A stretch of 64,000 nt of DNA from Buxus sempervirens (taxonomy: Eukaryota; Streptophyta; Magnoliopsida; Buxales; Buxaceae), in assembly GCA_947561395.2 (NCBI GenBank), contig OX387190.1:11650858-11714857 (forward strand), written 5' to 3'. Positions 711 through 30,041 of the stretch are shown here, one piece after another. Below the pieces are notes generated by a model. It did not search any database and had not been told where the DNA came from. It was given only the letters and a program-made list of their open reading frames with translations. Position 1 is the first letter of the stretch. Each line of letters opens with the position of its first letter. The position numbers and the translations under genes are program-made.

Positions 711-790
711 GCCCGTATTTTCTATACGGTCCACCCTTGCCCGTGAATGGAATCCGGTTTGGGCTTGCCCGTGAAGCAAACATGGTCCAG
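711..790. repeat. Downstream dyad cluster of LTR A1
   Basis: Inverted motifs with the core GCCCGTA/TACGG, including 711-732, and shorter GCCCGTG half-sites near 739 and 770. It lies about 0.8-0.9 kb downstream of the A1 TATA box and repeats the core used by the upstream cluster. Confidence 0.65.
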
Positions 791-1600
791 ACTGGACCGT
801 TCTGAGTTTACGGGCGCCTCCAGTTTTGCATATTTGGTGCCGGCTCTTCCTGGGATCAGTTCCGTGGCCTCTTTGGAACTTTCTGCAACTTCAGTGGTAG
901 TTCTGGTGCCTTCAATCACAGCACATTTGCTTCATTTGCCTCTTCGAGTCTTCTTTTGGTCCTTAATATCTTGTAATGAAACAAAGTTCCCTTCTTCATT
1001 TTTGCTGATTCATCTTTTAGTTACTTTCAATGAAAAGGGAGGGTGAGATGAAGATTACATGGGATAAGTTTGTGGGGACATATTCCCCTTTATATTGGCA
1101 AGTGAAACCAAATGAAATATGTTGGTTTCCATATTCTTTGGTTCGATTCACTTCTCTATTCTCCTTCTTTTTCATAAAGAAACTTTCATTCATATAAAAG
1201 AACTTCAACAAAAGTGAAGCAAATGGGTTAGTAGCAAAGTAATGAGAAAAATTGTTTAAAGGAGACAATTCACATGTATATATATTGAAAAAGAAGATGT
1301 TAAAAGGGTTACCACAATGTTACTCCTTTAATTTGATGATGTAGTGGTTCTCGGAAGATTCCGGCAGCGCTTCCGCGTCCTTCAAATTTTGTTAGGACGA
1401 AATGGGAAGAGGTGGGGAAGGTAGTTTATGCATGGAGGTAGGAAATGAAGAGTTTTAAGCATACAAGGGCATTTTGGGTACTAAAGGAGGCTTGGGTATT
1501 GGGATGGCAGTAATTTGGCAGGGGTTAGCCGTGGTTAACATACAGACAGAGAGGGGAGAGGCCAAGGAGAAGGCTTGTCTCAAATGGGGGGGAGGCCTCT

Positions 1601-1610
1601 CTATTTATAG
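1601..1610 (-). promoter_or_regulatory. TATA box of LTR A1
   Basis: The minus strand reads CTATAAATAG followed by AGAGAGGCC. The same block occurs in the intact family A LTRs at 29146-29155 and 39346-39355. Confidence 0.7.
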
Positions 1611-1624
1611 GCAAAAAGGGGCGT

Positions 1625-1838
1625 GCCCGTATTTGAAGTACGGGCGTGCCTTGCCCGTTCTTCAAGTACGGGCGTGCCTTGCCCGTAATTCAAATACGGG
1701 CGAAAAACGCACATTTGCAAATCTCGCAGAATCAGCCGTACGGGATGCGTGTCTCGCCGTACAGCAACGCGTGTCTTCTTCCAGAAGCTTGCCCGTATTT
1801 GAAATACGGGCATGCCGTGCCCGTAATTGAAATACGGT
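1625..1838. repeat. Upstream dyad cluster of LTR A1
   Basis: Five 20-21 bp inverted repeats with arms of the type GCCCGTATTT/AAATACGGGC at 1625-1645, 1653-1673, 1681-1701, 1791-1811 and 1819-1838. The centres read GAA or CAA. The cluster starts about 15 bp upstream of the TATA box. Confidence 0.8.
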
Positions 1839-2387
1839 CCAGCACGTTTTTAAAATGTTCGGATTTCAAACCTTTATTCAATTTGGTTTTTTTGCAAGAT
1901 TTCGTCCGATTTCTTTGATTATTTTATTGAAAAGCGAGATTCCTTTTATTAAAATATTATTAAACACATTTATCTTATTTATTTTATTGGTTTATTGCAT
2001 TTTTGCTGCCTTTTTGCCACATGGGCAGTTTTCTGAAATTTCAACTGCTCACAACTTCTTCGTCCGGTGTCCGATTTCAGCAAACTTAATGTCGTTGGAA
2101 CCGGCTCGGAATCACCTATCCACTGGGATCAAGTTTGGCAGTTGAATTGGGGTCGAGCAAAAAGTCAACTTTTCGCTCCCCAAAAGTTTGACCAGCTCAT
2201 AACTTTCTCATCCGGACTCCGATTCCAACAAATTCAGTTGCATTGGAACCGTGTCGAAATGCTCTTTTCAATGAGATGAAGTTTGATGGCCAAATTTACT
2301 TGAATCAAAAAGTCAATTTTTTGACCCCCGCAGGGTTTGACTTTTCATTTTTCTTTATTTTGGGGGTGCAAAAATCAGGTGTCTACA

Positions 2388-2642
2388 CTGGGCTTTGTCC
2401 GATTCCACTGTCTCATCCCTGATCAGTATAGGTTCAGGGGTGGGTTCATAGATGGGTTCAGGAATAGTTTGAATTGGAGGTGGAATGTTGGTTTGAGGTG
2501 GAGGTGCTTGGTTCTAGGCTTGCACTTGTTGGGCCTGCACCGACAGTATGTTTTCTAGCATTCGGGCTAGTCCTGCCACTTGCTCCTGTAGCAAGACAAT
2601 ATCTGGGTGAGGAGCATCAACTTCAGTCTCAATGGGATTCAT
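2388..2642 (-). pseudogene. Tat/Ogre-type gag, N-terminal fragment
   Basis: Minus-strand frame starting at ATG 2642 (MNPIETEVDAPH...), with a Leu-rich helix (VAGLARMLENIL) and then a proline-rich stretch (APPPQTNIPPP). The same order, a short acidic start, a helix and then a Pro-rich linker, opens the intact gag at 33656. One in-frame TAG near 2511-2513 breaks it, and it is cut at 2388 by LTR A1. The sequence just 5' of the ATG resembles the segment before the 33656 ATG, including a pyrimidine-rich CTTTTTGCCAAG that could be a splice acceptor. The rest of gag, if present, lies left of the window. Confidence 0.65.
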
Positions 2643-2894
2643 GGCGCAAGCTCTTGATCTGGTTACAGGAGCTATGATTGCAATTGTATTAGTACTTGGC
2701 AAAAAGATAAAGGAAAAATATCAGTGTCCATTTAATCTCATTCACATGCCTAGGAATGCCTATGTGCAGGCTGGGTGAACACGAGTTTGGATTTTGTTTC
2801 TTTATTTGCTTCTTTATTTATTTATTTATTTTTTTTAGAATTGTTGGAATATTCTATGGCTTCCAATAGGTTCCACAAAAAGAGAAAAGGATCT

Positions 2895-3245
2895 GAAATT
2901 CAAAGGCTTTCAGAGGCCCAAGGAAAAATCTGAAATATAAAGGCTTTCAGAGGCCCAAAGGAAAAAGATCTGAAATTCAAAGGCTTTCAGAGGCCCGAGG
3001 ATTTTTGATAAAAAGTCTGAAATTCAAAGGCTTTCAGAGGCCCAAGGAGTTTTGAGAAAAAGTCTGAAATTCAAAGGCTTTCAAAGGCCCAAGGAGTTTT
3101 GAGAAAAAGTTTGAATTTCAAAGGCTTTCAGAGGCCCAAAGGATTTTTGAGGAGAAGTCTGAAATTCAAAGGCTTTCAGAGGCCCAAAGGATTTTTGAGG
3201 AAAAGTCTGAAATTCAAAGGCTTTTAGAGGCCTAAAGGATTTTTT
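2895..3245 (-). repeat. Leader tandem array, eight copies of about 47 bp
   Basis: Eight copies of AGGCTTTCAGAGGCC (slightly varied) begin near 2903, 2941, 2981, 3028, 3075, 3122, 3169 and 3218, separated by TCTGAAATTCAA and A/G-rich spacers. On the minus strand each unit can pair CTGAAA with TTTCAG around a loop of about nine bases. The array lies just upstream of gag, as does the unrelated array at 32695-33420. Confidence 0.85.
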
Positions 3246-3990
3246 CTCACATATTTATTTATTTATTTATTTTTTGAAGCATTTTATTCAAACTCATTTC
3301 CCTTTATTACTATTTAAGGTTAAAGGAACAAGATTTAGTGGGAAAAACTGATTAAAATTGAATTTTCTGCTAAGACTGCATACACAGTACGGTCCAGCCC
3401 TTCCCGTATTCAAATTACGAGCAAGCCGTGACCGTATGGAAAACACGGGCGAGCCCAGCCCGTATAACCAATACGGGTGAGCCCAGCCCATGTACTAAAT
3501 GCGGTTTTACGGAGCTCTTTTATGTTTTCCCAGTTTTTACATGATTTGATCACTTTGATTGCTCATCCAAACATACGGTTCACCCATTGCAAAGCTTCTA
3601 AACTGTCCCAAAGTGGACTTTGGCCTATTTGCAAAAATACATATTTAGGGGGGCACAAGTACCCTCCAAATTGACACCATATTCAGGGGTATAGTACCCT
3701 TGGGTTGCCTCTTGTATGAACATTGGGTAGGATTGATTCTAAACAGAGGTAGAAACTCTTCCTATGGGCTACACAAATTTTAGAAAACATGCATATTTGG
3801 GACCAATTTTACCCCAAATGATGGACACCATGACACCCCCATGACATGAAAATAATGCAAAAATTAAGGTTACCTTGTTACCTTCAATATGGCATCCGCA
3901 TTATGCCTTGGCTTGCGAACCATGCAAACGGCCTTCCCACAATTACAAACCCATATCCCCACGTAATTGTGTACTTTAGCCAAAAACGTG
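3246..3990 (-). other. Element leader, gag-proximal segment, with dyads
   Basis: Non-coding leader of the minus-strand element. A dyad cluster at about 3388-3490 has CCCGTA/TACGG cores like those at 9148-9255 in this element's own LTR. Nothing else is recognisable. It ends in ACGTG, the TSD of solo LTR A2. Confidence 0.55.
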
Positions 3991-5010
3991 TGTGCGCACC
4001 CGATTTCGGTCGCACGACGAGGCGCACGCAAAGCGATGCGTGCCTCGGGATTTGTTTGGAGTCGCCACTGCCTGATGGGGTGCAAGCAGACACCTGGGTG
4101 CCTAAGTTTATCTATTTGGTCTGCGGCTTTGAGATTCTAAGTAGATTCTCGGTTGCGGTCTGGGGAAGTCCGTAGACACCCCAGTCCACCCCGTCACGTG
4201 ACGGGTCCCATAAGTTTCCTTGGTTTGAGTCAACTTTGGTCTCTCACTCACCCGATTCCTATTCCAGCATGTGATTTGATTAAGTCTGGCAGGACCGCCA
4301 AAGTGGTGTGGGTCCCTTTACTTAGTTTTATCTTTCCTAGCTTAAAGTGGTGTGAGTCTGATTGGGCGGGCCCCGTTGGAAGGCCCGCGGATTCCTTGGT
4401 GGGCTTGGTTGCACCCACGTGTCCCTTGGTGAGCCTCAGTCTAGCCTGAGAGGCCCTTTGGGCTTCGGTTCAAGTGAATTGATTTTATTTAAATTCCAAG
4501 TTTGATTAAATTTGATTTCCATGAAAAAGATGAGTCTGGGTTGCTTTGTGGGCCCGTGAGTGGGCCACACAGGGGGTTGCCAAGTGATTTCAGATTATCT
4601 TGATTAGCCTTTGCAAAAATGGGCCAAGCATTGGGCTTGAAAGCCCAAGACTTCTTGGGTTAGGGTTTTGACACCCTAACCTTGGTTTAATGGGCTTAGT
4701 GGGCCTGACAGGCCCTGCCCGTGGTCTCGGCCAAACCACAACCTACTTTTGAGCATGCATGGCCCAAACAGGGCTTGGGTGGGCCTCAAATGGTCCGGCC
4801 CACTCAAATCTTTCATTTATCTTAGTTAAGCATGAATGAGTTGGTCGGCCCTGTTGGAAGGCCCACCGGGAATCAATTTGGACCGGGTCGGTCCATGGCC
4901 CATTTTGGGTTTTCGGGTGACCCGGAAACCCTACTGGTTCGCCCAGAGTTGATCAAACAAACCAAAATATTGCACAAAATCATAAAAATGGCAAAAAAAG
5001 AATTCTGGCA

Positions 5011-5117
5011 GTGTAGCCGGCCTGAGATACCGGTTACACACAGGTCTCTGTGTATCCGACATCTATTACCGGCTACACAGGAGCTTCAGTTGATCCGGCC
5101 TGAGTTGCCGGATCAAC
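5011..5117. repeat. Downstream dyad cluster of LTR A2
   Basis: Three dyads: 5011-5039 (GTGTAGCCGG / CCGGTTACAC), 5050-5078 (GTGTATCCG... / CCGGCTACAC) and 5089-5117 (GTTGATCCGG / CCGGATCAAC, perfect 10-bp arms, loop CCTGAGTTG). The core ATCCGG and the loop match the upstream cluster at 6021-6267, not the CCCGTA core of other family A copies. Confidence 0.8.
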
Positions 5118-6000
5118 CTGCAGAAACCAAATTTTCGGATTTCTGCAAAGGGGTTGGGTTTTTAAGCCTCCCAGGGTGTTCCAGAGGTTGTGTGGGCTCC
5201 TGTGTGAGCCCACATTGGTTCGGGTGATGAGGAATCACCTCATCTTGGTCACTCTTCGAGGTTCCTTAACAAGGACAAAGGGGAAAATGGAGGGGGCTTC
5301 CCCCTTTGATCATTCCCTTGGGTAGAAACCAGCAGGGGAACAGAGGTCATGTGCCTCTGTTCCGGTTGTTCACGGCCACAAACGGCAACCCAACATGCAT
5401 GGTCACAACAATGCTCATGTACACGAAAGTAAAAAAAAGAAACAAATGCATCACATGCTGCTCAAACCACAGCCATGCAAGACCGAATCACGCCTAGCTA
5501 AAAAAAGGTGTCTACAGAAGGGAATAGGGGGGTTACATGGGATCATAACATGAGGAAACATGCTTCCTCTTAAGATACCAAACACATGTCAAAACAGTGG
5601 CAAGAAGAGAATAACACATGCTAACATACCATGAAGACAAATTTATGCTAAGGAAGAAAGCAAGCTGGGCAAACTCTTTAGAAAATTCTCATTTTAATAT
5701 ATGTACAATAAAATGTGAGGAGGAATCTTACCTGGGGGTTCTTGAACCCCGGAGTTGTGTAGAGAACTTCCTTGAAGCCGGAATAGTTGCTGGAACAGTC
5801 CCTCCAAGCACCAACAGCAAACTCTCCTTCTTCCCTTGAGGTTTAAAGTGGACAAGATGAGGGAGAAGGTCAAGGATGGTTTTTAGGTTTGAGGGAGCAA
5901 GAGAAGGTTAAAGTGGGAGATTTCGGTCCAGGTGCAGTGGGGAAGGAAGGGTGGAAACCAAGCAAAATCAATCCAACCCCGGAAATGAGCTGCTGGTTTG

Positions 6001-6010
6001 CTATTTATAG
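6001..6010 (-). promoter_or_regulatory. TATA box of LTR A2
   Basis: Minus strand CTATAAATAG, placed between the upstream dyad cluster and the splice-donor-like site as in the other family A LTRs. Confidence 0.65.
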
Positions 6011-6020
6011 AAAACTTAAT

Positions 6021-6267
6021 GTATCCGGCAACTCAGGCCGGATACACTAAGAACTTCCCTTATCCAGCCTTCATGGCCGGATATACTAAGGCTCTTTTGT
6101 ATCCGGTCTCCAAGTCCGGATACAAAACATAATCATTTGAAAATTAAATGCCGCTGCGAATTTGTCGGGCGATCGGCGCGGATCTCGCGCGAAAATCTTC
6201 TTGTATCCAGTCTTCAAGTCCGGTCATGAAGGGTAGCTAGTGTATCCGGTATATTTGACCGGATACA
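6021..6267. repeat. Upstream dyad cluster of LTR A2
   Basis: Dyads at 6021-6045 (GTATCCGG / CCGGATAC, spacer CAACTCAGG), 6061-6085 (decayed), 6097-6125 (TTGTATCCGG / CCGGATACAA), about 6201-6230 (decayed) and 6241-6267 (TGTATCCGGT / ACCGGATACA). The cluster starts about 10 bp upstream of the TATA box. Confidence 0.82.
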
Positions 6268-6818
6268 AATCGAAAAATTACGGATTTGCCCTTCGACTTG
6301 ATCGATTCGACCGATTTGACACTTTTGGATATCTACGGATCGCCCGTACGAATTTTTGATATTTAAGATTTAGTCCCTGAGATATTTTGCTGCGTTGGCT
6401 GCCACGTGTGCAGTTACTGCGCCACGCGTGCAGTTTCTGGTTTTTGCTACTCGGAAACTTCGACAGATCATATCTCCTTCATCCGGACTCCGATTTGAGC
6501 AAACTCAATTGCGTTAGGCTCGTATCGGAGCCATCTATCCAATGACATTGGGCTAAGCACTTGGCACGGGGTTCGAGGAAAAGTCAACTTTCGGCTCATC
6601 CTCAAGTTTGACCGGCCCGCAGAACCTTCATCCGAACTCCGATTCCAGCAAACTCAGTTGCGTTGGACTCGTGTCGGGATTCTCTATACAATGGGATAAA
6701 TCAAGGTGGCCCATTATCACTTGGTCAAAAGGTCAAATTTCGACCCCTCAGGGTTTGACTTTTTAGCTGGGTTTTACATTTTCAGCACTTCCAGGGGTGC
6801 AAAAATAAGGTGCTTACA

Positions 6819-7535
6819 ACGTGTATCTCCACCTTTAAGCGTAGGGGTTTTGGGTTTGGCTTAATGGCAACTTAGCACTCAAGCCTAGTGATGACCAGAA
6901 TCGAATCACAGATCCACGTTATCATCACATCATTGGCCCAAAGTTCTAAGGTGAATGTTTTCACTTTCGCTTTCCGAAGTATCGACCTCGTTACGCCAAG
7001 CTACACACATTCGGGTTCAAATTCCTATAGGTTATGGGTAGGCTGTGTAAAAAATAAAATGTGCACAGTGCATTGTAAAAATTGGGTGCATTCACAACGT
7101 CCCAAACCGTTGCCACTCTTTTCGTAGCCATGCATATACAAACTAAGGCATAATAGGAAAGCATATATAAAGTAAACAAATACACAAAGTAGTCCCTATA
7201 GCACCTAAAACATGCTCATAAAAATCATCCAATCATGCAAACATCTGATCATGTTATACACCAAAAAATCACCATGGAGATCATGCTGAAAATTAAAACA
7301 TGCTATTATAAAAATATAGCAAGAAATAAACATGGTTCAGCAAAACGAACCTCCCCTACGCATGTTTCTAGAAACAATCCTATAAATCAAAATTAAGCAT
7401 GTTTCTACCCCCATGAATTCTTAAGCAATAATTCAGATTTAAAACATACCAAGCATGCTCAAGATCACAAAATAGCAAGCAAATCCAAAAATATCAAAAA
7501 CATGAACTAAAACACCAAAAGGCTCAAATCCTCAA
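6819..7535 (-). other. Element leader, PBS-proximal segment
   Basis: Continuation of the minus-strand leader across the A2 insertion. AT-rich, without a coding frame I can support. Confidence 0.5.
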
Positions 7536-7556
7536 GTCCCCAGCGGAGTCGCCAGT
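7536..7556 (-). promoter_or_regulatory. tRNA primer-binding site
   Basis: Minus strand TGGCGACTCCGCTGGGGACT, separated from the LTR end by two bases. It closely matches TGGCGACTCTGCTGGGGA at 30834-30851. A TGGCGACTC... PBS is typical of Tat/Ogre elements; the exact tRNA (often given as Arg) is from memory. Confidence 0.75.
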
Positions 7557-9354
7557 TGTGAGACATGGGAAAAAATCAATTCATTGACTGACTGATCATC
7601 ACGCGGGATTGGTTAAAAACACTAGAGTCCCCACCATTCTGTTTAGGTGTGAATGGGCACCAAAATATCAAATAAGCTCAAAAAGGCAAATTTAGGGTAA
7701 AAATAACCCTCCTAAAAAAACAACCAGAGATGGGTAAGGGGATTAGGTTATGAATAGGGGAAGGTGTTAGGCACCCCTATTCATCCACACAAGGTGGTTG
7801 CCAGGCATTGTTCATGTTAAAATAAAGGAAAAAGGCTTGCTATAAAAATCATGAAAAATCACAAAAAAAGACAAAAATGTATGGTTTTTTCATACGAATA
7901 GCCTGATTGATCCAGAACTTTCAAATATGATCATACCATTCCTAGGGTTTCATGATTAAAACAAAATTGAGATAAAATCAATTTAAAGTGAAAACTTCAA
8001 AATCTGGTTTCAAGTTAAATTCTAGAAATCTAGAAAAATATGATTTTTATAAAATATTGCAAAATTAAACTCGAACATTCTAGGACATAGATATAGCCCA
8101 AATTTCACATTAAATCAAAAAATCAAAACCAAAAATACCCACATTGATGAAGAACATCAAAAGGGGGGAACTTAGACCGTAGGTCTTCTCTCAATAATGA
8201 AAAACGATTTAAAATTCATATCATGAAACCCTAGAAGTTATTTTCAGGCTTCTGGATCCAGATCTACCATATTGATCATGATAAATCTAGGATCTTAGCC
8301 TAATATCACAAACATCACGAAAACAGTGCTGTAGGTGCAAAAGTGGTGAAAATCTCAATTTTTGGAGAAAAAGAGGATTTCATGCTATAAACATCATAAT
8401 CATCATAGATTCATTCATATTCAACATAAAAACCATTAAACATGATCAGGATATCCAAAGCAGCCATATCTCACAAATTAAAGCACATTGGGGTCTACCC
8501 TACGGATCCACCTGTTCTCGTTTCCCCTAGCTCTCTCTTTACGTTTTATGGCTAGAGAGGATTCTTGAGGTACTTGGAGATAGGTTTGGTGATACAAATA
8601 CAATCAGAGGCCTTATTCTAGAAAAAAAGGAGAAAAACAGATATAGGGTTCTATTCTAGGGATCCACCTGTTCCCCTTTCCCCTAGCTCTCTCTTCACGT
8701 TTTACGGCTAGAGAGACTCTTGAGGTACTTAGAGACAAGTTTAGGAATACAGGTACAAAAGATGGCCTTATTCTACAACAATAGAGAAGATCCTATTACT
8801 TCTAGAATTGAAGACAGAAAATAAAAAGGGAAAAGGGACTTACCTGGATTGAGCAAGCAGAGCAGCAGAGATTCCTTTCTTCTCTTGGAGCTCCTTGGAC
8901 TTCAAATTTTCGTGGCCTTTTGCTTGAGGAAAGGCCCTCTATTTATAGGCAAACACAGGGGTATGGTTGGTCCAAGGTTTGGCAAGATAGAGTTTCAGTT
9001 TGAGTTAAACACAAGATCATGCCAATCCTTTATCCACAAAGATATTTCGAACGAATAAAAGATATAATTCACTCATTTAAAGGGATATTGGACTAAAGAT
9101 AAGGCTCAGAAATCAAGAGAAGAATAAAACTCGCACGATTCTAATGTGCCCGTAAATGATTTACGGTCCAATGGTGTCCGTATATGTATTACGGGCGTTG
9201 TGTGCCCGTATATAAAATTCGGGCGCGCTTAGCCTGTAGATACAATACGGGCAAGGCTTAAATTATTGATTTTCATGCATTTTTGGCCTGTTTTAAATTC
9301 CAATTACATGTTTTCATAATTTTCTCATTTTTAGTGCAATTTGGGGTGTCTACA
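7557..9354 (-). mobile_element. 5' LTR of the minus-strand Tat/Ogre-like element
   Basis: Plus-strand termini TGTGAGACATGG...GGGGTGTCTACA, adjacent to a PBS. On the minus strand: CCCGTA-type dyads at 9148-9255, a TATA box at 8941-8948 (CTATAAAT), a leader of about 100 bp and a strong donor CCAG|GTAAGT at 8842-8843. A tandem duplication of about 155 bp (about 8494-8640 and 8650-8790, each with GGATCCACCTGTTC and CTAGCTCTCTCTT) lies in the putative intron. It is 1.8 kb long, shorter than the other family A LTRs. Confidence 0.82.
9148..9255. repeat. Upstream dyad cluster of the 7557-9354 LTR
   Basis: Four decayed GCCCGTA.../...TACGGGC dyads, about 200-310 bp upstream of the minus-strand TATA box at 8941-8948. 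Confidence 0.65.
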
Positions 9355-10671: not shown

Positions 10672-10909
10672 TTTATTTTATTTTGGAACTCAAGATATCT
10701 AAGCCCATTTACGCTCAACATACAAATCCCTGAGGGCCCATGCAAGACCCTGCAAGTCACATGGTCCAGGTAAGTCTAAAGCCCATAGACCTTATGCAGG
10801 TGGTCCTAGGAGATTTGCCCAAGAGAGTCCGAACTTGAGACCTTAGAGGGAGCATACCTCCGGGCCCTGGTCTTGACCAGCAGGCCAACCCGCTGGAGTT
10901 AAACTTAAC
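10672..10909 (-). mobile_element. tRNA-derived SINE, copy 1
   Basis: On the minus strand a Pol III-like A box (GTTGGCCTGCTGGTC) precedes a B box (AGTTCGGACTC), then a tail shared with copy 2 at 12397-12636 (GGTCTATGGGCTTTAGACTT, TCTTGCATGGGCCCTC), ending in an A-rich run. Flanks CCGAAATGTTTT and CCCAAATATTGTTTT look like a decayed TSD. Confidence 0.7.
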
Positions 10910-11409
10910 CCCAAATATTGTTTTCCTCTACTCGTTTATTTTTCTCTAGTTCTTAGCTCAAAACATAGAGGCAAGCAAGCAATAACTACTTGGTTGATTA
11001 AAGCTTGGAGGAGATTCAAGCTTTACGGTGGAGTTACCTGTGACTTGGATTTGAGTTCCCACGTTGATAAAGAGAAACAACAAATAAAAATATAAAAAGA
11101 ATAAGAAGAAAAATCTGCTAGGTCATCACAATTAACGCCTCTACAATAAGCTTTTTACACTTTCCAGTTTGGAGGTAGTCTGGAATCCAATCAACATGAA
11201 GGTAATGATTATATTCTTTATAATAAGGATGGAGAAAAACTCATCAATTTATTCACTGATCGATGGTTAATGTAAAGTTTCTTCTCGTCCAACTCTCCCC
11301 GGTCTCAATCCAAAAGGTTTTACCCAAAGTAGCTTAGGTTAGGGGTTCTGAATAAGTAATGAAAGAATTAAAATCAACAACTTCCACCAATCTACTTTCA
11401 TTTAGAAAA

Positions 11410-12636: not shown

Positions 12637-13850
12637 TTTGAAAGGTTTGCATGCATATCTGTTACGCCCTATATCCGAGTTACGTAGTGAAAACCGTAAC
12701 TCATCTCTGAAGGTTAATTTTTTCACACAAGATTAATATATCAGAGTGAAGGAAAACATGAATAAAGCAATAACTATATAATCAGATTCAACTAAAACCC
12801 AACTCAATATAGAATTACATATCTTCAATCTGAAACTCACATGATCAAAGTATCTACCCTTATGTATCGTCCTCTCCAAGAGCAGCTGAAAACAAAAAAC
12901 AAAATAAAACGGAATGAGATACGAATATCCCAGTAACCAGCACATGCATGCTCAAATACATTTTTCATAGTTATAAAACATGTATCGGACATAAAACATG
13001 TAACGGTAGTGATAACAAGATTAATCCGAATAATCCCACAATAATTCAGCAAGCAAATATAATATAACTCATGAAGTCCATTGTAAGCACCTTATTTTTG
13101 CACCCCTGGAATTGCTGAAAATGAAAACCCTGGCAGAAAGTCAAACCCCGAGGGGACAAAAAGTTGACTTTTTCATTAAGTGATATTTGGCCACCTTGCT
13201 TTATATCAATGGATAGAGAATCCCGACACGAGTCTAGCGCAACTGAGTTTGTTGGAATCGGAGTCCGGATGAAGGTTCGGCGGGCAGTCAAACTTAAGGG
13301 AGAGCGAAAGTTGACTTTTTCTTGAATTCCGTGCCAAGTGCTTAGCCCCATATCATTGGATAGAGAATCTCGACACGGTTCCAACGCCACTGAGTTTGCG
13401 GGAATCGGGGTCCGGATGAAGGTTCTGCAGGCGGTCAAACTTGCGCGGAGCCAAAAGTTGACTTTCTGCTAAAATCCGATCCGGAGGCCTACCCCTAGGT
13501 CATGGGATGGAGGGCTCCGATACGATTCTAATGAAACTAAGTTTGCCCAGATCGGAGCCCGGATGAAGAAAATATGAGCTGGCGAAGTTCCCGAGCAGCA
13601 AAACCGGCGAACTGCGCACGTGGCAAAAAGCTGCACACGTGGCGAGTTGCGCAGAAAAATATCTCGGGGATCAAATCCATAAATATCCAAACATTCAAAA
13701 TATCCCAGGGACTAAATCTGTGAAAATCCGAGAATATCGGATTAAATTGAAAATAACCAGGGACTAAATCCGAAAATTCGGATTTTCCGACCAAACGAGC
13801 GGCCGCATTAATGGTTTTTTAATCATTCGGTCGCTCGCGCGAACGTGGCA

Positions 13851-13905
13851 GGGGGTATGCGCTCACCTCGAGGTGGGTGCCAAGCTCGGCGGATACCCTC
13901 TGTCC
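13851..13905. repeat. Upstream dyad of LTR A3
   Basis: Outer arms GGGTAT / ATACCC enclose the perfect palindrome CACCTCGAGGTG (13864-13875) and AGCTCGGCGG. It ends about 10 bp upstream of the TATA box. The core differs from the other family A copies but returns downstream at 14650-14927. Confidence 0.65.
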
Positions 13906-14404
13906 TATCCTATATAAGCCGCGCGACCTTCTCGCGTAAGGGGTTGGAAAATTTGGTTCGGAAATTTTCTGGCTGGGCTATCTCTGGTTTTGGCCATTCT
14001 AGGGTTCGGACTTTTGGGGGTTCGGAAGTTGTGGAGGCTGGATTTAAGGGTTTGCTGTTTTTCGGCATTCAAAGGAGAAGGAGGAGCTTGCCGAGTGAGC
14101 CCAAAGGAGGAGAGTTCCGCCGCTGCTGGAGCTTCAAAGGGGGAGCCTATCCACCCACTTCGGAGAGGTGTTGAAACACCCAGGTAATGTTCCCGATGGC
14201 CTCTGGCCCAAAATAAATGAGTTCATTGCTATATTCTCTTTTCTGTTATTTCATTTAGTGCTTGTGTGATTCGAATGGGGAGCATGTTCTCCTGGAGCCT
14301 TGCATCTCTTGTATCCAGATAACCCCCTGTTCCCTTCTTCATAATCGTCATGTTCTGTTAAGTTAGGGTTTTGATTTCCGAAGTTTACGCATGTTCTGTT
14401 AATA

Positions 14405-14500
14405 TTTTGTTTCGGGTTTATAAGTTTCCAGAGAGATTTTGTTTCGGGTTTATAAGTTTCCAGAGAGATTTTGTTTCGGATTTATAAGTTTCCAGAGAGA
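14405..14500 (+). repeat. 32-bp tandem repeat, three copies
   Basis: Units begin at 14405, 14437 and 14469 (TTTTGTTTCGGGTTTATAAG followed by TTTCCAGAGAGA), nearly identical. Located in LTR A3, downstream of the donor-like site. Confidence 0.9.
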
Positions 14501-14649
14501 TTTGAGTGAAGAGTGGTGAGGATGTGTTAGGTTAGATTAATTTCCATTTGTGTTTAGAGGTCTTCTGGGGTTCCAAGGATCCCCAGAAAGTGCTTACGGA
14601 GCTCGAAAACAGTCGGAAATGGAGTTTGGAGAGAAAAAAACAGAGAGTC

Positions 14650-14927
14650 GGGGTCTGCGCTGAGCTCACGCTCACCTAACTTGGGTCCGCCCACCTGGCG
14701 CCCAGCTCGCGCCCACCTTTTTTGGGTGCGCCGAGCTCGCGCCCACCTGGCGCCGAGCTCGCGCCCACCTTTTTTGGGTGCGCTGAGCTCGCGCCCACCT
14801 GGCGCCTAGCTTGCGCCCACCTGGCGCCCACCTCGCGCCCACCTCATTTTTACGCGGTTTTTCGCTGTTTTGGTCCGCCCGGCCCGCGCCGACCTCGCGC
14901 CTAGGGCCCGAGGTCGGCGCATACCCC
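14650..14927. repeat. Downstream dyad and tandem cluster of LTR A3
   Basis: Repeats of GAGCTCGCGCCCACCT and TTTTTTGGGTGCGC, ending at 14906-14927, which on the minus strand reads GGGGTATGCGCCGACCTCGG. Compare GGGGTATGCGCTCACCTCGA upstream of the TATA box. GC- and CpG-rich within an AT-richer LTR. Confidence 0.75.
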
Positions 14928-15620
14928 TAAAAAATGCCAAATTGGTATATTTTTTGAAAAATTCCACAGGGCCCCCGGGTACCTCCCCTTGGACCCAGCA
15001 CAATGAGCCAATTTTTTCTTGATAGGGTGTCAATTTTGTGCATTTTCTTATGTGATTATTGCTGAATGTGGGCTTTATTTCCAAACCGAACCGGATGAAC
15101 CAATAGGGTTCCCGGGTCACCCGGAAACCCAAGATGGGCCTTGGACACCCGGTCCAAATTGATTCCCGGTGGGCCTTCCAACGGGGTCCACCAAGCCTGA
15201 CAAACTCCTTTTGTTAAATAAAGATAAAATCAATCCATTTGAGTGGGCCACATCAGTGGAGGCCCACCCAAGCCCAATTTTGAAGCATGTTGATCTAGAC
15301 TTAGGCATGGTTTGGCCGAGACCATGGGCAGGGCCTGTCGGGCCCACTAAGCCCATTAAACCAAACAAGTGTAGGGTTTCCAAACCCTATCTCAGAAAGT
15401 CTTGGGCTTTCAAGCCCGAGCCCAGGTAAAGGGCCCCAAGCCCAATGCTTGGCCCATTTTGGCACAGATAAGAAAGATAATCAAAACTACTTGGTAACCA
15501 ACTGTGTGGCCCGCTCAAGGGCCCACAAACAGTCCCGGCCCACTTGTGCATAGAAATCACTTAAATAGCCAAACTGAACTTCAAAGTAAAATCAATTCAA
15601 AATGGGCCAAAGTCCAAAGG

Positions 15621-15704
15621 GCCACACTTGGCCCACCAAGGAACATGTGAGCCACACTTGGCCCACCAAGGAACATGTGAGCCACACTTGGCCCACCAAG
15701 GGAT
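15621..15704 (+). repeat. 30-bp tandem repeat, nearly three copies
   Basis: Units of GCCACACTTGGCCCACCAAG plus GAACATGTGA begin at 15621, 15651 and 15681. In the U5 of LTR A3. Confidence 0.9.
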
Positions 15705-16418
15705 ACCGTGGGCCTTCCAATGGGGCCCACCCCACCAGGCCCAAATCATCTTAAATTAAAAAGATAAAATCAAGTAAAGGGACCCACACCACTTTGGCGG
15801 TCCCGCCAGACTTAATCAAAATTGCATGCTGGAATAGGAATCGGGTGAGTGAAAGACCAAAGTTGACTCAAACCAGGGAAATTTATGGGACCCGTCAATT
15901 GATGGGGTGGACTGGGGTGTCTACGGACTTCCCCAGACCGCAACCGAGAACCTACTTAGAATCTCAAAGCCGCAGAACAAAAGCCTTAGTAGAAGAACTT
16001 AGGCACCCAGGTGTCTGCCTGCACCCCATCAGGCAGTGGCGACTCCAAACAAAACCCCGAGGCACGCGTCGTTACGCGTGCGCCTCGTCGTGCGACCGAA
16101 ATCGGGTGCGCACATCCATCATATAAGTCAAATCCATAGCATCAATATCAAATTGCGCGAATAACATGAAACCTAATATAACCGTGTAACCACATGTTGA
16201 TGAAACCAAATTTTCCAAAACAACCCAATAGATATAACTCAAATCAAAAGAAGTGTCACATTAGAGGAATCCACATCATAATCAAGTCCACTACTCCATG
16301 TGTGTATCTAGCCTACTCAGGTTTTCGGATATTGAAATGACGGCTTACTCAGGGTTTCGTTATCCAATGCCGGCCTACTCCGAGTTTTAGCATTGACAAC
16401 ACCGAACCTGTAACGCCC

Positions 16419-22862: not shown

Positions 22863-24157
22863 CTTTTTAATCCACCCACACATATGCTTGTATAGAGTCT
22901 TAAACTAATAACTACCACGAAATATCACCAATCCTTAGTTAGGTCTCATAGGATAGTATTGAGGAATTAAAACCCGAAAATTACCTCTCTATGGAATCAG
23001 CTACACCTAGCTGGAAAATAGATGCTGGGCACCTAGTGGTCACCTAGGCACCCCCTAGGTGGCCCCATTAATTTTTCACAGTTGCCTACCTATTGCAGTA
23101 GGTGCTCAGTAGGCGCCCATGCATTACAATTACAGAACACGACTGACTCTCTGTAAACTCAATTCCAATATGACTGAACTTAAATTTACTCCTAACCACG
23201 CTGAATTTCTACTCTTCTATCTCTCAAATGCATGTTCAACAATAATTGAAATTAATTTAAACATGATTCGACCAAATTCAAAGAATTATGCACATGAATG
23301 TACAGTCGCTGAAAACACAATCTCAATTAGATTAAACCACTATTAATTCTCCAAAATTCATATGCAAATCCAAGTAAACCGAGTGCTACTTACCTGTTCC
23401 AGATTAGATCCAACGCCTACAGCAACTAGGAAGTAGATCTGGAGTTTCCACGACCAATCCTCTCTTCAGAACTCTTGTAATTTACGTAATTAATCTTTTT
23501 ATCAACAGATCTGGATCACTGCTTGCTCCTATCCATTTCTAATTGAAATAATCTCTCAATTCATGATTCTAGACACCTTACCTGATCTGCAGATGATCTA
23601 GACGAACCTCATAGCCACTCAATCTTCTAAAATCTCCAGTTTACTTCAAAACTTCTGCAATGCAAAATCAGCCACTTGAACAATTCTCCTCCGCTCAAAC
23701 TAGTCTCTTCTCTCCCTCAAGTGATCTGGTTCATCCACTGCTCCTTGACTCTTCTAGCACCAATTCAACCAAACATTCTTGAAAGAATAGCGATCCATTT
23801 ATAGGCTATCGTTGTCGCCCAACCAATTTAATTCACGATTTGCTGATGCTCGCCCATCTAATTTCCCTACATAATCAATCTCTCTTAATTATACTAATCC
23901 AGTGTTTGCCTCTATACTGAGATGTTACAGTAGCACCTTAAATAGATTTATTTAATTCAATTATATTATTTATTAAGTGTTCATGCTATAAAATATAGCC
24001 ACCACTTACCAATCATATTTCCTCTCTTCAAATGACCTTTGAAATTATCAAAATACCCTTGCTCTTCCTTTCCTGATATTTTCACCAATAATAATAATTA
24101 ATATTACTAAAATAATTCCCAAATTCATTAATAAAAAGTTTGGGGTTTTACAATATC

Positions 24158-24694
24158 AGCTAACAAAGCAATAGTTTGGGTCCCATCATCTAGTTTTCTC
24201 CTTTGACCACATTGATGATTTGGGTAACCAAGTGTATAATTGCCCTTTTTTTTGTAATTTTCAATTAAATGGCTCCCATAGATCCCAAGATGCAAACAAG
24301 ATTATTTCAAGAAGCTCTATAGTCCCTTCATTGGAAAGATAATTTCCCAACATGTTCATTGTCAAATTGCAAATACGAGAACATGGCTACTTGTATCTTC
24401 CTCAGCACTATGCTATTCCAATTACCTTTACTATAGTTAGATCTGTCACATTTTGGTTACCACATTTTGAACCATGTAATTAGTGGCTCCCAAATCTATA
24501 ATAAAATCCACCATTTTTTATTACCCATCATCCAATTAGAATGCTTCCAAAAACAAAAATACACCAACAAGCCCTTAAGGAAGAAATTTTGGGGCAACCA
24601 AAGAACTATAGTGTAAGAAAGTAGTACTAACCCTTTTAAGGAAAAAAAATGGTCATTTATAATTTTTTTTGCCACATTAAGAACTGATCCTATT
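24158..24694. other. Host DNA, no gene seen
   Basis: AT-rich. No domain, splice structure or repeat boundary that I can support. It ends in the TSD CTATT. Confidence 0.4.
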
Positions 24695-26482
24695 TGTAAC
24701 GCCCCGGATCCAGGTTTATTTAACCACATAAACCCAAATCTGGTTCGTTAGGGAAAATGGCCTGAACAACTATTCCAGACTTAAACAAATTCATTTATTA
24801 TATCAGAGTGCGGAAATAAAAACATCTTTCAAGAAGCGTGGAATTAAACCACCAAAATAATCCATTAATATTTCATCTATAAATTCTGAAAAGGGTTCAA
24901 CTAAATAACATCCACCAAATACAGAACCTTATTTGTATAACCAAATCCGCCCATGCGGGGAAACAATAAATCAGGCACCAGCCTTGTCATACCAGTGACC
25001 CAAAACCAGAACAAAATGCACCAAGTCATATGTCCAAAACTCCAGGTTTCAACAGGCCAATATGTCTCGAATGTGTATCGACTCCATCGATGCACAAAAT
25101 ACCTTCATATCACCCAAATACAAGTGTATGAACTCACAAAACCAATCTTGGTTAAAAGTAAAATCTTTTGGAACAATGAAATCAAGTAAAAGTGCCTCTT
25201 TAAAAACATCTACCCAAAATCTTTATAAAATTGAATTTTAAACATTCGCCAGTACCAAAAATTCCCAAATACCCCAATCTTGATGGTACATAGGTTAAAA
25301 TTGGATAAAAACACTTTTGTAGTGAAAAACTAAGTTGAAAAGCAAATTTCCAAAAATCTGACAGACTGGTCGCTTGAGCGGCCAAGGGCGCTCGATCAAC
25401 CTTCACAAAAGGTTGTTTCAGGGGAGTTCGCTCAAGTGACTGTTCTAGCGACAATTCAATCTAGGAGAAATTGCTCTCGGGTTTTGAATAAATACATAGG
25501 GCGCTTGAGCGACTGCTCAGGCGACCCGATACGTGAAAAATCATTAACTTTGTGAAATTCAACAAAAATTCCACAACTCAATATTCAATACATCAAAACC
25601 ATTCTAAATCATTCTAAAACACTTTATAAGCATGCTAGAACAATTCCCAACAATTAAAACATCATAAATAACAAAAACAACGCATCAAATCACCGATTAA
25701 CCATGTATATCGTCTAAACACGAATTTGTATTTTATGCAAGCATCAAAGGGACTACTTACCTGTTTCTAGGACTTAAACTTTCTCTAAACGCTCTCCAAA
25801 ATCACTCAAATGAATGCCTATTCGATCACATCAAGCCTCTCTCAATTTTGGATCAAAATCATGTCTTTAAGAACCAAAACACATCTAAACTTCCAAAACA
25901 GAAACCTTCTTATAGTTTGTTCTTACCTGGGCTTTTATGCACGAAAATCTCCTTCTTCCTCCTTTAAAAACTGCTTCTACAAGTTGCCTAGGGTTAGGTT
26001 TGATCTCTAGGAAAAAGAGAGAGAAGTATAGAGGGAATAGAAATGGGCGTGCGGCTGCTTCTATTTTCCTGTTTTGCTCTTAACTAGAATAACCCATGCA
26101 TGGTCTAGGTTTATTTAATTTATTTAAAGTCTTTTACCAATTTACCCCCTTCACTAAGCCAAACCAATTAAACCATGAAGCCTCAACCCAATTAAACCTT
26201 TGGGTCAACCCACTCTCTTTGGGTTCGACCAACTCCTTTAATTCCTTATTGTTTATCTTTTATTTTATTTCTAATTAGTTCTTACTAATATAAATCATAA
26301 CACAAATAATTATTATATTAAAATAATACTTAGTCCATAATCATGAACTCACCTTATATAGGCTCTCCTATCATCTCTGGTTCATCTTGGACTCCTCCGA
26401 GTTAAACCAAAATCTCATCTCCTGCATATTATTAACCAATTAGTCTATTTATTTATTTATTATTAAAATCTGGGATTTTACA
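24695..26482 (-). mobile_element. Family B solo LTR B4
   Basis: Plus-strand termini TGTAACGCCCCGGATCCAGG...AATCTGGGATTTTACA. TSD CTATT is perfect (24690-24694, 26483-26487). The minus-strand donor-like AACAG|GTAAGTAG is at 25759-25760; I could not place an acceptor. A CpG-rich patch with GCGCTTGAGCGAC / GTCGCTTGAGCGG motifs lies at about 25370-25535. At 1.8 kb it is the shortest family B copy here. Confidence 0.9.
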
Positions 26483-26487
26483 CTATT

Positions 26488-27243
26488 GACTTATTCAATT
26501 CCAAGACATCTGGATGTCCAAAAAATAATTTCCAACCTCCCCATTAAAATTTCAAGGTATCCAAATGGTCCACAATCTAAATTGTGAATGTATTTGTGGT
26601 CTCCGCTTAAATTCTTAGATTGTCAACATTTATTAGCTTGTTGGTACAGCTGCAAATTTAGAATCCAAAATACTACTGGATGTAGAAAATCATGACAAAT
26701 TATTTTCTTTTGAAGAGTACTAAGCATTCTGTTATACATTCAGATAGGATACCTTATGAATTTCACATTTGCCAACAAACAAGCTAGAATTTATGTAAGA
26801 AGGTAATATTAAAACTACTTTCTATTATCAAAAGGGGAAAATTTTCTTGATCAATAAATTTCAAATTTTCTCATTTAGGAATGGATAAAAAGTAAAACAA
26901 ATCTAAAGTATTATACTAAAATTGTTGGAGTATAAACTTATTATAAACTTTTAGTGTAGTATAACAATGAATGCATGAGTGAAATAGGGTAGGTCATTCC
27001 TTCAAAAATCCTTCTATCAAAAAAGATATCCATTAAAGTAGCTGATAACATCCTATTAAATCTAAAACACCTAGAGATGAACATTAATTTAACAATTATT
27101 TTCATATTAGAATGCTATTTTTTGCAAGTATGCACGGTGAGTTTACAAGAGCTAATATGAGCACTGATGAACATATGAACCCAAGGTTGCAGTACTAACT
27201 GGTTTTCTTACCATTTGTTGATTGGACTAAGGGATATTGAATT
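26488..27243. other. Host DNA, no gene seen
   Basis: AT-rich sequence between LTRs B4 and B5. No supported feature. Confidence 0.4.
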
Positions 27244-28972
27244 TGTAACGCCCCAAACCCGGGTCAGTGCAAAACCGGCACCCAGCCCGAATCTGGTTTG
27301 TTACTGTAACAACCCGAGTCTAGTTCAACAACCAAACCTGAGATGCTACTGAAAATTTGGGGTTAGAACCAAACTAAGATTAACAAGGAATTTTAAATTT
27401 AAATATCTTTATCAGAGATTTGGTGGAAATAAAACAATTCTTTATTCAATTTAATCAAATTAGTTTACAAAAATATTTGTCTATTCAGAAAAAGGAGAAT
27501 AATATCATTTACAATTCTACCCATAAAGTTCTACCCCATCTTCACGATCTCTCCAAGCAATACCTAAAAAATAGGTGAAAACGGAGTGAGATTTACATCT
27601 TAGCAAGTAGCAGGTGCATGCAAATAAAAACAATCTAAATTTAAGGAAACAGTTATGAGGTATTCGATTAATCCACGCTAAAGCAATAAATCCAAGTTAA
27701 CCAGAGATAATTCCAAATAAAACGATAAAATATGCAAGCATACGTAACATACCAGCAATAAGATGTTATTGATAAAATAAATCGATAAAAGCGATAAAAC
27801 AATTGTGTCACTGTAGGACTCGCAAAGATGATAAGTTTTTGAGAAGACACTCGACCAAATGCTATACCACCGTGTGACTTAAGGGCGAAGCTACTAAGAC
27901 ACTCAAACCCGAGACATCTCCTTAGATAAGAGTCGTAGTAATCAACTTATCGCGCAAGAACTCAACAGAGTTAGTGTAACGCCCCGAACCCGGGTCAGTG
28001 CAAATCGGCACCCGACCCGAACCCGGTTCGTTACTGTAACAACCCGAATTCAGTTCAACAACCAAATCCGAGGTGTTACTGGCCCATATCAAATATACAT
28101 CAAGAATATACCAGACTAAAGAATTAAAAATCCATTCAATTAATTAAACTATCTGTAAGTGTGAAAACTCACACTCCTTATATGGCAAATGTTTGACAAA
28201 TTATATCCTCTAATAATCTTCAAGATGTGCAGAATCAAAATATAAGTTCTATGAATTTTGTAAAGAGGAAAGTGAGGCTACCACACAGCTACCATGCCGC
28301 TGGTAGCTCAAGGAAATCTAAAAGAAGAACATTTCGTAAAGGCACTTGCAATGAAGAATGCCGCTGCCACTCCGCTGGCAGCGCATAAGTTGTTAGCACC
28401 TGATTTTTGCACCCCCAAAAAATGCAAAAAATGAAATTTTAATTAAAAAGTCAAACCCTGAGGGGGCCAAAATTTGACTTTTTGATCCAAAGAAAATTGG
28501 CCATCAAACTTCCTCTCATTGAAAAGAGCATTTCGACACGGTTCTAACGCAACTGAGTTTGCCAGAATCGGAGTCCGGATGAGGAAGTTATGAGCCGGTC
28601 AAACTTTTGGGGGAGCAGAAGTTGACTTTTTGCTCGACCTCAATTCAACTGTCCAATTTGATCTCAGTGGATAGTGGGTTCCGAGCCGATTCCAACAACA
28701 CCAAATTTGCTGAAATCGGACATCGGACGGAAGAGTTATGGACAGTTGAAATTTCAAAGAAAGCTGCCCATGTGGCAAAACAGCAGCAAAAAGCAGAATA
28801 AATGAATTAAATAAAAAAAATAATCATTTAATAAAAATATCTTTATTTTTTAATAATATTTTAGTAAAAGAATCTCGTTTTTATAATAAAATAATCAAAA
28901 AATCGGATAAAAATCTTTAAATAAATCAAATTTAATAAAGCATTTGAAATCCAACATTTTAAAAACGTGCTG

Positions 28973-29132
28973 GACCGTATTTGAAGTACGGGCGAGGCAT
29001 GCCCGTATTTCAAATACGGGCAAGCTTCTAGAAGGGGACGCGTGTCGCTGTACGGCGGGACACGCGTCCCGTACGGCCGATTTTGCGAGATTTGAAAAAT
29101 GTGCGTTTTTCGCCCGTATTTGAATTACGGGC
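28973..29132. repeat. Upstream dyad cluster of LTR A4
   Basis: Contains 28975-28993 (decayed), a perfect palindrome with arms GCCCGTATTT/AAATACGGGC at 29001-29021, a 12-bp-arm inverted repeat GGGACGCGTGTC/GACACGCGTCCC (29035-29046, 29059-29070) and 29112-29132. It ends 14 bp before the TATA box. Confidence 0.88.
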
Positions 29133-29145
29133 ACGAAAATTTTGC

Positions 29146-29155
29146 CTATAAATAG
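29146..29155 (+). promoter_or_regulatory. TATA box of LTR A4
   Basis: CTATAAATAG followed by AGAGGCC; identical in the 3' LTR at 39346-39355. Confidence 0.75.
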
Positions 29156-29933
29156 AGAGGCCACCCCCCTCATTTGAACAAGCTAGTCCCCCATATGCCC
29201 CCACTCTCCGGTTTTGCTTTCTCCCACGTCCGAAACCCTGTCCAGATACACTCTCATTCCCAAGCTTAATTTTATCCCCAACATACCCCCATTCTACTTA
29301 AACCATGCCTAATCCCTCTCTCTTAGCCTTCATTCAATTCCACCTCAACAAACCTCTTTCAAAATCATCCTAGGAAAACCCGGAGGACGCGGAAGCGCTG
29401 CCGAAATCACCCGGAGAATCAACACTTGTCAGAAACAAGAAGGTAATAGTAAAGGAGTATTTCTGGTAATGTAATATCCAACATATTTTAAACTTGACTT
29501 TATTCTCGAATTCCCTTTATTTGCTATTTGCTTTATTATGTATCTCTCACTTGTTTGCTCTTATTAAGCATGGCATTGAGTCTCCCATGGTGAAGGTACC
29601 CAACTAAAAGGCGAAATGAGAATTCTATTGAGGATTTATCAAAGAAGCAGTTATTTAAAATAACATATCCTTAATTCTTGTAAAATGATATGCCTAATGT
29701 ACAAATCATCCTCTCCTCAACTTCATCCTCTCATGGTTCTCCTTCAAAGGAAGGCCACATGAAGATTAAAAGAAGGAAAAGGTGAAGAGTTGAAGAAGAA
29801 GATGATCAAGAAAAGGGCATTTAAGTTGCTGTGAAGACACTGTGAATCACCACCGAAGTCACCATAGCACCCCAGAAGACCTACCGGAGTGATCTCAATC
29901 GAAGTCGGAGCAAAACGGCGAAGTTGAACAAAA

Positions 29934-30041
29934 ACCGTATACTCAGAGCGGTCCAGGCGTGCCCGTAGTTAACCTACGGTCTGGCCTAAACAGTATTAAA
30001 ATTACGGTTCAGCCTAGACCATGATTGAAATACGGTCAAAC
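29934..30041. repeat. Downstream dyad cluster of LTR A4
   Basis: CCGTA/TACGG half-sites, including the dyad CCCGTAG/CTACGGT at about 29961-29980 with centre TTAAC. Same core as the upstream cluster, about 0.8-0.9 kb downstream of the TATA box. Confidence 0.7.

Follow-up and report, generated by a model that had tools for sequence, protein, structure and literature searches.

Lineage-specific half-site arrays in the LTRs and antisense plant-mobile-domain gene promoters of Tat/Ogre-type retrotransposons in Buxus sempervirens

The window, i.e., the whole stretch of 64,000 nt from Buxus sempervirens that was analyzed (OX387190.1, GCA_947561395.2) and to which all coordinates refer, carries the solo LTRs A1, A2, and A3, the element A4 and the 5' part of a fifth element, B, which was missed by the initial annotation (Table 1). 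The A4 element is nested in a copia LTR, and no long pol frame was seen in it. Element B is interrupted by A1 and A2 and extends below the window (L069, L070), where the final 30 bases of the A1 LTR also fall (seen from L069 9971). The minus strand of L069 (5901-3340, two open frames) encodes RVT_1, RNase H-like and rve domains in Ty3/gypsy order, and this pol is assigned to B because A1 is a solo LTR whose two flanks both consist of B sequence. The 3' LTR of B was read at its start only, where L070 3-218 matches 9140-9354 of the window at 95.4%. Element B is a pol-bearing Tat/Ogre-type element, named by its features alone.

Table 1. Retrotransposon features and half-site arrays located in the window.
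Feature	Position	Strand	Description
A1 solo LTR	1..2387	-	inserted in gag of element B; target duplication CTGGG
A1 downstream array	690..830	-	core as in A1 upstream array; first unit loop AACTCAG
A1 upstream array	1625..1838	-	GCCCGTA-N7-TACGGGC units, 28-bp period; TATA box 1601-1610
B 5' part	2388..9354	-	5' LTR 7557-9354, PBS-like 7537-7554, leader, gag start ~2641
B leader array	3374..3520	-	GMCCGTA core, between PBS and gag
A2 solo LTR	3991..6818	-	in leader of B; target duplication CACGT/ACGTG
A2 downstream array	5011..5117	-	8-7-8-16 geometry as in A2 upstream array; first unit loop AACTCAG
A2 upstream array	6012..6267	-	TATCCGG; 39-bp period in TATA-proximal units; TATA box 6001
B LTR upstream array	9149..9253	-	GMCCGTA core; upstream of TATA box 8939
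A3 solo LTR	13082..16114	+	target duplication TCCAT
A3 upstream site	13851..13905	+	inverted pair GCGCTCACCTC/GAGGTGGGTGC-like and a GCCAAGCTC-like copy
A3 downstream array	14650..14927	+	GCGCYCACCTC / GCGCCGAGCTC 11-mers, largely direct
A4 element	28391..41030	+	LTRs 28391-30830 and 38536-41030, 96.7% identical; target duplication TAAGT
A4 5' LTR upstream array	28973..29132	+	GMCCGTA core; 3' LTR copy 39118-39326
A4 5' LTR downstream array	29934..30041	+	GMCCGTA core; 3' LTR copy 40133-40231
A4 PBS-like	30834-30851	+	
A4 gag ORF	33563-36046	+	

Inverted-repeat clusters on both sides of the TATA box had been annotated in A1, A2, A3, and A4. They are present with a core common to both sides in A1, A2, and A4, while A3 differs in kind. 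The LTRs of A1 and A4 form one family (83% identity across shared parts), whose core is the GMCCGTA half-site at a pitch of 14 bp; the core of A2 is a TATCCGG palindrome with a 39-bp period. Dyads with a 7-nt loop were counted in each cluster and compared with 400 dinucleotide shuffles of the same cluster. The counts in the upstream arrays of A1 (8 dyads), A2 (4 dyads) and the A4 5' LTR (5 dyads, 4 of which are the motif) were reached by 0/400 shuffles. By dyads alone, the downstream arrays of A1 (1 dyad, 50/400 shuffles), A2 (1 dyad, 76/400) and the A4 5' LTR (2 dyads, 4/400) are weak, as are the leader array of B and the upstream site of A3; what sets these five apart is their core. The upstream array of the A4 3' LTR has two units more than the 5' LTR copy. 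In the A1 and A2 families, the loop AACTCAG of the first downstream unit is kept at 0.99 and the arms differ; in A2, it is the reverse complement of the loop CTGAGTT in the proximal upstream unit. In six LTRs, the 300 bp before the TATA box have a CpG observed/expected ratio of 1.1-2.3, compared with 0.18-1.01 elsewhere.

The upstream site of A3 precedes TATATAAG at 13912 and has 0 dyads with a 7-nt loop (400/400 shuffles), and the downstream array has 7 dyads (0/400 shuffles). A3 had been annotated with clusters of inverted repeats like the others, but GGTATGCGC is present in the window a single time on each strand, and the downstream array consists mostly of direct 11-mers. No gene matching the A3 core was found. 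The LTR A5 has a RACCGCA-type core, with a cluster downstream and none upstream. Between the sister copies L062 and L064, the loop is inverted.

Element B has the GMCCGTA core at four kinds of place, namely the LTR, the leader and the promoters of two antisense genes, aORF1 and aORF2. The LTR array has 6 dyads (0/400 shuffles) and the leader array 2 dyads (6/400). Similarity between the B and A1 LTRs is absent in the self-comparison, yet they have a common core. When a core cluster was called as at least 5 GMCCGTA half-sites (1 mismatch tolerated) within 160 bp, 15 clusters were obtained in 116.5 kb, compared with 0 in 20 block shuffles, and 14 of the 15 sit at LTR, leader, aORF1 or aORF2 promoter positions. 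Among three further copies of B, L116 has the LTR array and the aORF2-type promoter without the usual aORF1 promoter; the stretches of L117 and L118, which begin within the aORF2 promoter or beyond it, are uninformative. Neither dyad clusters nor a core cluster were found in the internal stretches L072-L075 (A1, A2, and A3 families). A domain search, confined to L072 and L073, found pol domains and no plant mobile domain (PMD): neither a PMD gene nor an internal array was seen in two pol-bearing A1-family stretches.

The core had further been taken as specific to each copy. LTR families were gathered by similarity to A1, A2, and A3, and families of 17-22 LTRs keep their core, A1 and A4 belonging to the same one. 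The main pairing test covered 60 LTRs of three families, with both A4 LTRs entered as two. It left out L016, L029, L033, L042, and L043, in which the TATA string is absent, as well as L001-L008, of which L001-L004 and L008 are the same LTRs as the A1 of the window and L009-L012, and L005-L007 also lay outside the set. Upstream and downstream clusters match by family (0/5000 free permutations), but same-copy pairs match no better than other pairs of the family: the observed same-copy similarity was reached by 2801, 3048, and 3792 of 5000 permutations. An earlier run used 50 LTRs, with 13 or 14 of 20 A2 copies excluded because the exact TATA string or sufficient length was lacking. Co-evolution at the level of the copy was rejected in both tests.

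Firmer evidence comes from beyond the LTRs: the same cores precede DUF7745/PMD genes. The two antisense genes of B, located between pol and the 3' LTR, match plant-mobile-domain models. The best model for aORF1 is DUF7745 (PF24924, 6.2e-21, 75.3 bits with a cut-off of 26), followed by PF10536 (3.9e-13, 49.7 bits with a cut-off of 34.9). The aORF2 of the B relative L118 is over the PF10536 cut-off (9.9e-17, 61.6 bits), and the aORF2 pieces found in B and L117 fall short of that value. The C-terminal stretch of aORF1 is coiled-coil-like by eye, with weak Pfam support. Among 489 candidates from the homologue search with the aORF1 protein, 0 reached E<=0.001, and two solved-structure matches (E 0.24 and 0.55) were rejected as not credible. 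A core array of 5-9 half-sites lies upstream of aORF1 in 20/20 copies read out of 148 scored matches; in B itself, nine half-sites follow an exact 14-bp pitch.

Eight more divergent DUF7745 genes, out of 118 such matches, were read for 421 bp each, a scope outside which lie their surroundings (retrotransposon, antisense to pol). One of them (L123) has an upstream CCCGTA array, one (L120) an ATCCGG array, and five an AACCGCA array, and in one (L126) an array is absent from the 421 bp. The array of L120 has a 39-bp period and 9 half-sites in 421 bp, compared with a shuffle maximum of 4, and matches the proximal unit of the A2 LTR in 28/31 bases, including the CTGAGTT loop; the link of ATCCGG to a gene is this single locus. 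The five RACCGCA promoters have the core of LTR A5, the string TATA[AT]A is absent from these stretches, and the weak array of L124 does not exceed the best of its shuffles. The RACCGCA core closely resembles GMCCGTA. Other PMD (PF10536) genes were rejected as array bearers, as a dyad array within 750 bp was present in 0/20 read out of 117 matches; half-site matches near these genes are dispersed, with at most 7 in 771 bp (raw counts, no shuffle control).

The clusters may be cis-regulatory half-site arrays for a trans-acting factor that varies with the Tat/Ogre-type lineage, and the most likely candidate is the DUF7745/plant-mobile-domain protein that B encodes on the antisense strand in the region from pol to the 3' LTR. 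Recognition of the half-sites would fall to its N-terminal domain and dimerisation to the coiled-coil-like C-terminal stretch; the protein is probably a dimer, which would suit the inverted orientation and fixed pitch of the half-sites. The protein may act on its own promoter, the second antisense gene, the LTR promoter and the leader, and in different lineages the core would have shifted jointly in gene promoter and LTRs (CCCGTA, ATCCGG, ACCGCA). Judged from sequence, we lean slightly towards the view that each lineage has a DUF7745 protein that recognizes the half-sites of that lineage and regulates its gene and LTRs. The A1/A4 and A2 families, in which no such gene was seen, retain sites belonging to one lineage, to whose factor they could therefore be responsive. 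Activation or anti-silencing appears slightly favoured over autorepression, given the CpG richness of the upstream clusters and their proximity to TATA boxes.

Host transcription factors of differing specificity could instead bind the arrays, with lineages having recruited different ones and reused them at several promoters. The position of arrays directly before TATA boxes is consistent with this, as is the single core of the otherwise dissimilar B and A1 LTRs, but the cores track element lineage, DUF7745 gene promoters included, and we consider host factors rather unlikely. We know of no plant factor with a CCCGTA-N7-TACGGG site.

The clusters could also be RNA signals, i.e., U3 and U5/leader hairpins for packaging, dimerisation or 5'-3' pairing, whose stems co-evolve round a conserved loop. 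The retention of AACTCAG between differing arms and the complementary CTGAGTT of A2 would be explained in this way, and compensated pairs number 58, compared with 33 expected for any double change (seven positions, including U5 dyads outside clusters). Paired RNA structure, which the initial annotation had put forward, is nevertheless disfavoured by half-site position 2, where one arm has A and the other C in 85 of 226 units and A stands on both arms in 2, an uncompensated excess among related copies and not independent events. The exact 14-bp pitch and the arrays that precede genes in the opposite orientation further make RNA signals improbable. We give equally little credence to palindromes without function, generated by template switching and tandem duplication, with the two clusters matching through copying inside the element. 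Such copying would fit the different array lengths of the two A4 LTRs, the inverted loop of L062 and L064 and the reverse-complementary A2 loops, and in the downstream arrays conservation of the arms (0.81-0.98) does not clearly exceed that of neighbouring sequence (loops 0.66-0.99, spacers 0.70-0.90, flanks 0.81 and 0.96). It does not account for the recurrence of 14/15 clusters at LTRs, leader or gene promoters at varying TATA distance, for clusters in unrelated LTRs and gene promoters, or for a register held over nine half-sites.

The lineage-specific core in LTRs and element-borne gene promoters suggests a private self-recognition system. Its full form would be an LTR retrotransposon operator system, in which an antisense DUF7745/PMD dimer binds palindromic arrays in the LTR, the leader and the promoter of its own gene, protein and half-site co-diversify, and gene-less families persist displaying the sites of one lineage; we regard this VANC-like system of independent origin as evenly poised. 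VANDALs are DNA transposons. Their noncoding parts contain short tandem motifs that differ between related families and are recognized by the element-encoded factor VANC, whose sites co-evolve, and the unrelated element AT9TSD1, which has the motif, is also affected, according to the available parts of two reports (PMC5735166, PMC10398659). Motif arrays in noncoding regions differ between related families here too. In the part available, VANC21 motifs have the same orientation, whereas half-sites alternate in inverted orientation in A1, A2, and B, A3 being mostly direct; moreover, the candidate protein here is DUF7745/PMD, named from the association of gene and promoter. Of the VANC parallel drawn earlier, a diversifying factor with its own sites remains what we take as the best reading, with the family and not the copy as the unit.

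In Ogre elements, the PMD was reported in 57% (PMC6317226, available part), and B likewise has PMD genes, the RT-RNaseH-integrase order and a PBS-like site. The same part of that source mentions neither promoter arrays nor motif turnover for these ORFs. The sources considered here leave open what such extra ORFs do in the element; matched operator arrays would give them a testable role. In Retand, antisense ORFs encoding TRP28 lie between pol and the 3' LTR, as do the genes of B, with predicted DNA binding and a proposed regulatory role (PMC11963269, available part). However, the domain is TRP28 (PF04195) there and DUF7745 in B, and the available text reports tandem repeats in the region from pol to the 3' LTR, with no operator-like sites. 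In Arabidopsis, MAIN and MAIL1 are transposon-derived PMD proteins whose dependent genes share the DOWN promoter motif, although these are host genes and of the PMD-C type (PMC7156037, PMC9899485, available parts). Among the titles and abstract openings listed from an open-licence library for repeats in plant LTRs and for PMD and promoters in Ogre, none describes such arrays. New is element B, with the A1/A4 core at its LTR, its leader and its two antisense PMD-like genes.

If the operator reading is true, family-specific regulatory codes are a means by which retrotransposons can label themselves, and the reading would help to predict which gene-less family answers to which gene-bearing one. 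Among viral contigs, the array pattern was unmatched and a relative of the A4 gag was absent. Furthermore, 2 of 17 A2 LTRs additionally reach 4 GMCCGTA half-sites upstream.

The window holds Tat-type LTR elements and belongs to an assembly of 676.5 Mb in 247 contigs, which its repeats suggest to be that of a plant. The family A element A4 is flanked by TAAGT and sits inside a copia LTR, and no long pol frame is found among the ORFs listed in it. The invaded copia element has a 557-aa ORF (window 47879-49552) with PF20167, a putative plant transposon protein, located after its pol ORFs and before its 3′ LTR. A fifth element, the Tat/Ogre-type B, was absent from the finding of the initial annotation; it is broken up by the LTRs A1 and A2 and extends below the window into the loci L069 and L070, where its RT, RNase H and integrase domains were found. 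The L069 pol is assigned to B, since A1 is a solo LTR; the start of the B 3′ LTR is 95.4% identical to the 5′ LTR.

Positions of elements, antisense genes and CpG-rich regions (window coordinates unless a locus is named)
Feature	Position	Description
A4 element	28391-41030	two LTRs (28391-30830, 38536-41030), 96.7% alike; gag ORF (PF03732)
A1 solo LTR		5-bp target duplication CTGGG
A2 solo LTR		5-bp target duplication CACGT
A3 solo LTR		5-bp target duplication TCCAT
B 5′ LTR	7557-9354	
B PBS-like site	7537-7554	
B gag	start near 2641	
B aORF1	L069 from ~327	antisense to pol; DUF7745 6.2e-21, PMD 3.9e-13
B aORF2	L070	antisense to pol; interrupted by LTRs; array at 568-761
LTR A5	L070 2636-5232	nested in B
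CpG-rich upstream regions	1601-1838, 6001-6290, 8939-9253 and others	in otherwise CpG-poor LTRs

In A1 and A4, GCCCGTA-N7-TACGGGC-N7 units with a 28-bp period lie upstream of the TATA box and again about 0.8-0.9 kb downstream, and both clusters of A2 consist of TATCCGG palindromes in an 8-7-8-16 layout with a 39-bp period. In A3 the upstream site is an inverted pair and the downstream array consists of 11-mers mostly in direct orientation, and the A1/A4 core recurs in B, upstream of the TATA box and in the leader. By dyad count alone, five of the ten clusters are strong (upstream in A1, A4, A2 and B, downstream in A3; 0/400 shuffles each) and five are not (downstream in A1, 50/400; A2, 76/400; A4, 4/400; B leader, 6/400; A3 upstream, 400/400). 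Half-site clustering with the GMCCGTA core gave 15 clusters in 116.5 kb vs none in 20 shuffled sets, and 14 of them sit at LTRs, the leader or antisense-gene promoters, A5 (own core ACCGCA) being counted through the allowed mismatch. The remaining cluster, five GMCCGTA-like half-sites at window 10710-10859, is outside any assigned LTR.

The initial annotation held that the core differs from copy to copy and is shared by the two clusters of one LTR. With 40 more LTRs from two genome searches and 20 from a third, the tested LTRs comprised 22 of the A1 family, 17 of the A2 family and 21 of the A3 family, a sample that was not blind and holds few independent families (three, plus B and A5). At least four own-core half-sites occur upstream and downstream in 22/22 and 22/22 A1-family LTRs, in 17/17 and 16/17 of the A2 family, and, for the 11-mer core, in 0/21 and 21/21 of the A3 family. 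The two clusters have on average 21-26 7-mers in common within families vs 6-15 between families. Free permutation of the pairings reached the observed total in 0/5000 trials, whereas permutation inside families reached it in 2801, 3048 and 3792 of 5000; by the refuting test that the initial annotation proposed, the matching of cores therefore stands for the family and fails for the individual copy.

The dyads are better read as DNA sites than as RNA stems. At half-site position 2, 85 of the 226 A1-family units, which come from related copies so that these are not 85 events, combine A in one arm with C in the other, and 2 have A in both; this looks like half-site degeneracy rather than pairing. 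Compensated pairs over all positions number 58 vs 33 expected, a count that takes in dyads outside the clusters, and this excess is not decisive. In their first downstream unit, the A1 and A2 families have differing arms around an almost unchanging loop, AACTCAG (0.99), and in the A3 family an AGCTCAG loop lies between other arms; the one explanation we offer is a conserved centre of the site. The CpG o/e is 1.1-2.3 in the 300 bp upstream of TATA boxes vs 0.18-1.01 elsewhere in LTRs, which would fit a locally unmethylated site but may be a mere effect of the CpG in every core.

The element B carries two opposite-strand genes, aORF1 and aORF2, between pol and the 3′ LTR. Just before the aORF1 TATA box, nine GMCCGTA half-sites form an array with an exact 14-bp pitch. 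Against PMD (plant mobile domain), the aORF2 piece of B scored below the cut-off (1.2e-6), and aORF2 of its relative L118 reached 9.9e-17. By eye, and with weak Pfam support, the C-terminal parts appear coiled-coil-like. The 148 aORF1 relatives scored, of 6455 candidates, are all 89-100% alike; the array is present in 20/20 read, with 5-9 half-sites each, counted without a shuffle control. Two loci, L077 and L116, seem to have an aORF2-type promoter before aORF1.

Three cores are common to LTRs and the upstream regions of DUF7745 genes of other lineages, eight genes out of 118 scored matches being known here from 421 bp upstream each. At L123, seven CCCGTA half-sites at 14-bp pitch precede a TATA box. 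At L120, the one locus linking the ATCCGG core to a gene, nine TATCCGG half-sites with a 39-bp period precede a TATA box, and the proximal unit matches the A2 LTR unit at 28/31 bases, with the same CTGAGTT loop. RACCGCA, the core of A5 (downstream cluster only), has 7 half-sites at L119, 8 at L121, 9 at L122, 5 at L124 and 8 at L125, where the maxima in 200 shuffles were 5, 6, 7, 5 and 6; no TATA[AT]A string occurs in these five 421-bp stretches. L126 has no array in its 421 bp. None of 20 other PMD genes has a dyad array within 750 bp, so the arrays are not typical of PMD genes at large. Several near-equal PMD gene pairs with long open frames, about 3.4 kb apart (e.g., C11:29210190-29214687 of the assembly), are another PMD-bearing repeat, and the upstream pieces read have no dyad arrays.

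Operator-like arrays common to LTRs and extra-ORF promoters are not described in the consulted portions of four related reports, according to which VANC21 binds tandem, directly repeated copies of a short motif (PMC5735166), 57% of Ogre elements carry PMD (PMC6317226), antisense TRP28 proteins of Retand are predicted to bind DNA (PMC11963269) and MAIN/MAIL1-dependent genes have the DOWN motif in common (PMC7156037). We propose that the DUF7745 protein of each lineage would bind the half-sites of that lineage, presumably as a dimer, and would thereby control, in one sense or the other, the LTR and both antisense genes, its own among them. The clients of this protein would be the families A1/A4 and A2: neither a PMD gene nor an internal array was seen in the pol-bearing A1-family stretches L072 and L073, and no long pol frame in A4 or, judged from open frames, in the A2-family stretch L074.

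The two A4 LTRs differ by two upstream-array units, so array length is altered in the course of insertion or later. Just upstream of the TATA box, the sister A3-family LTRs L062 and L064 share one long palindrome whose 7-nt loop is inverted between them (TCCTGTC/GACAGGA), as template switching would leave. Five A2-family LTR matches at C6:22754750-22801665 of the assembly are regularly spaced by 11.4 kb, as tandemly repeated units of LTR plus internal region would be.
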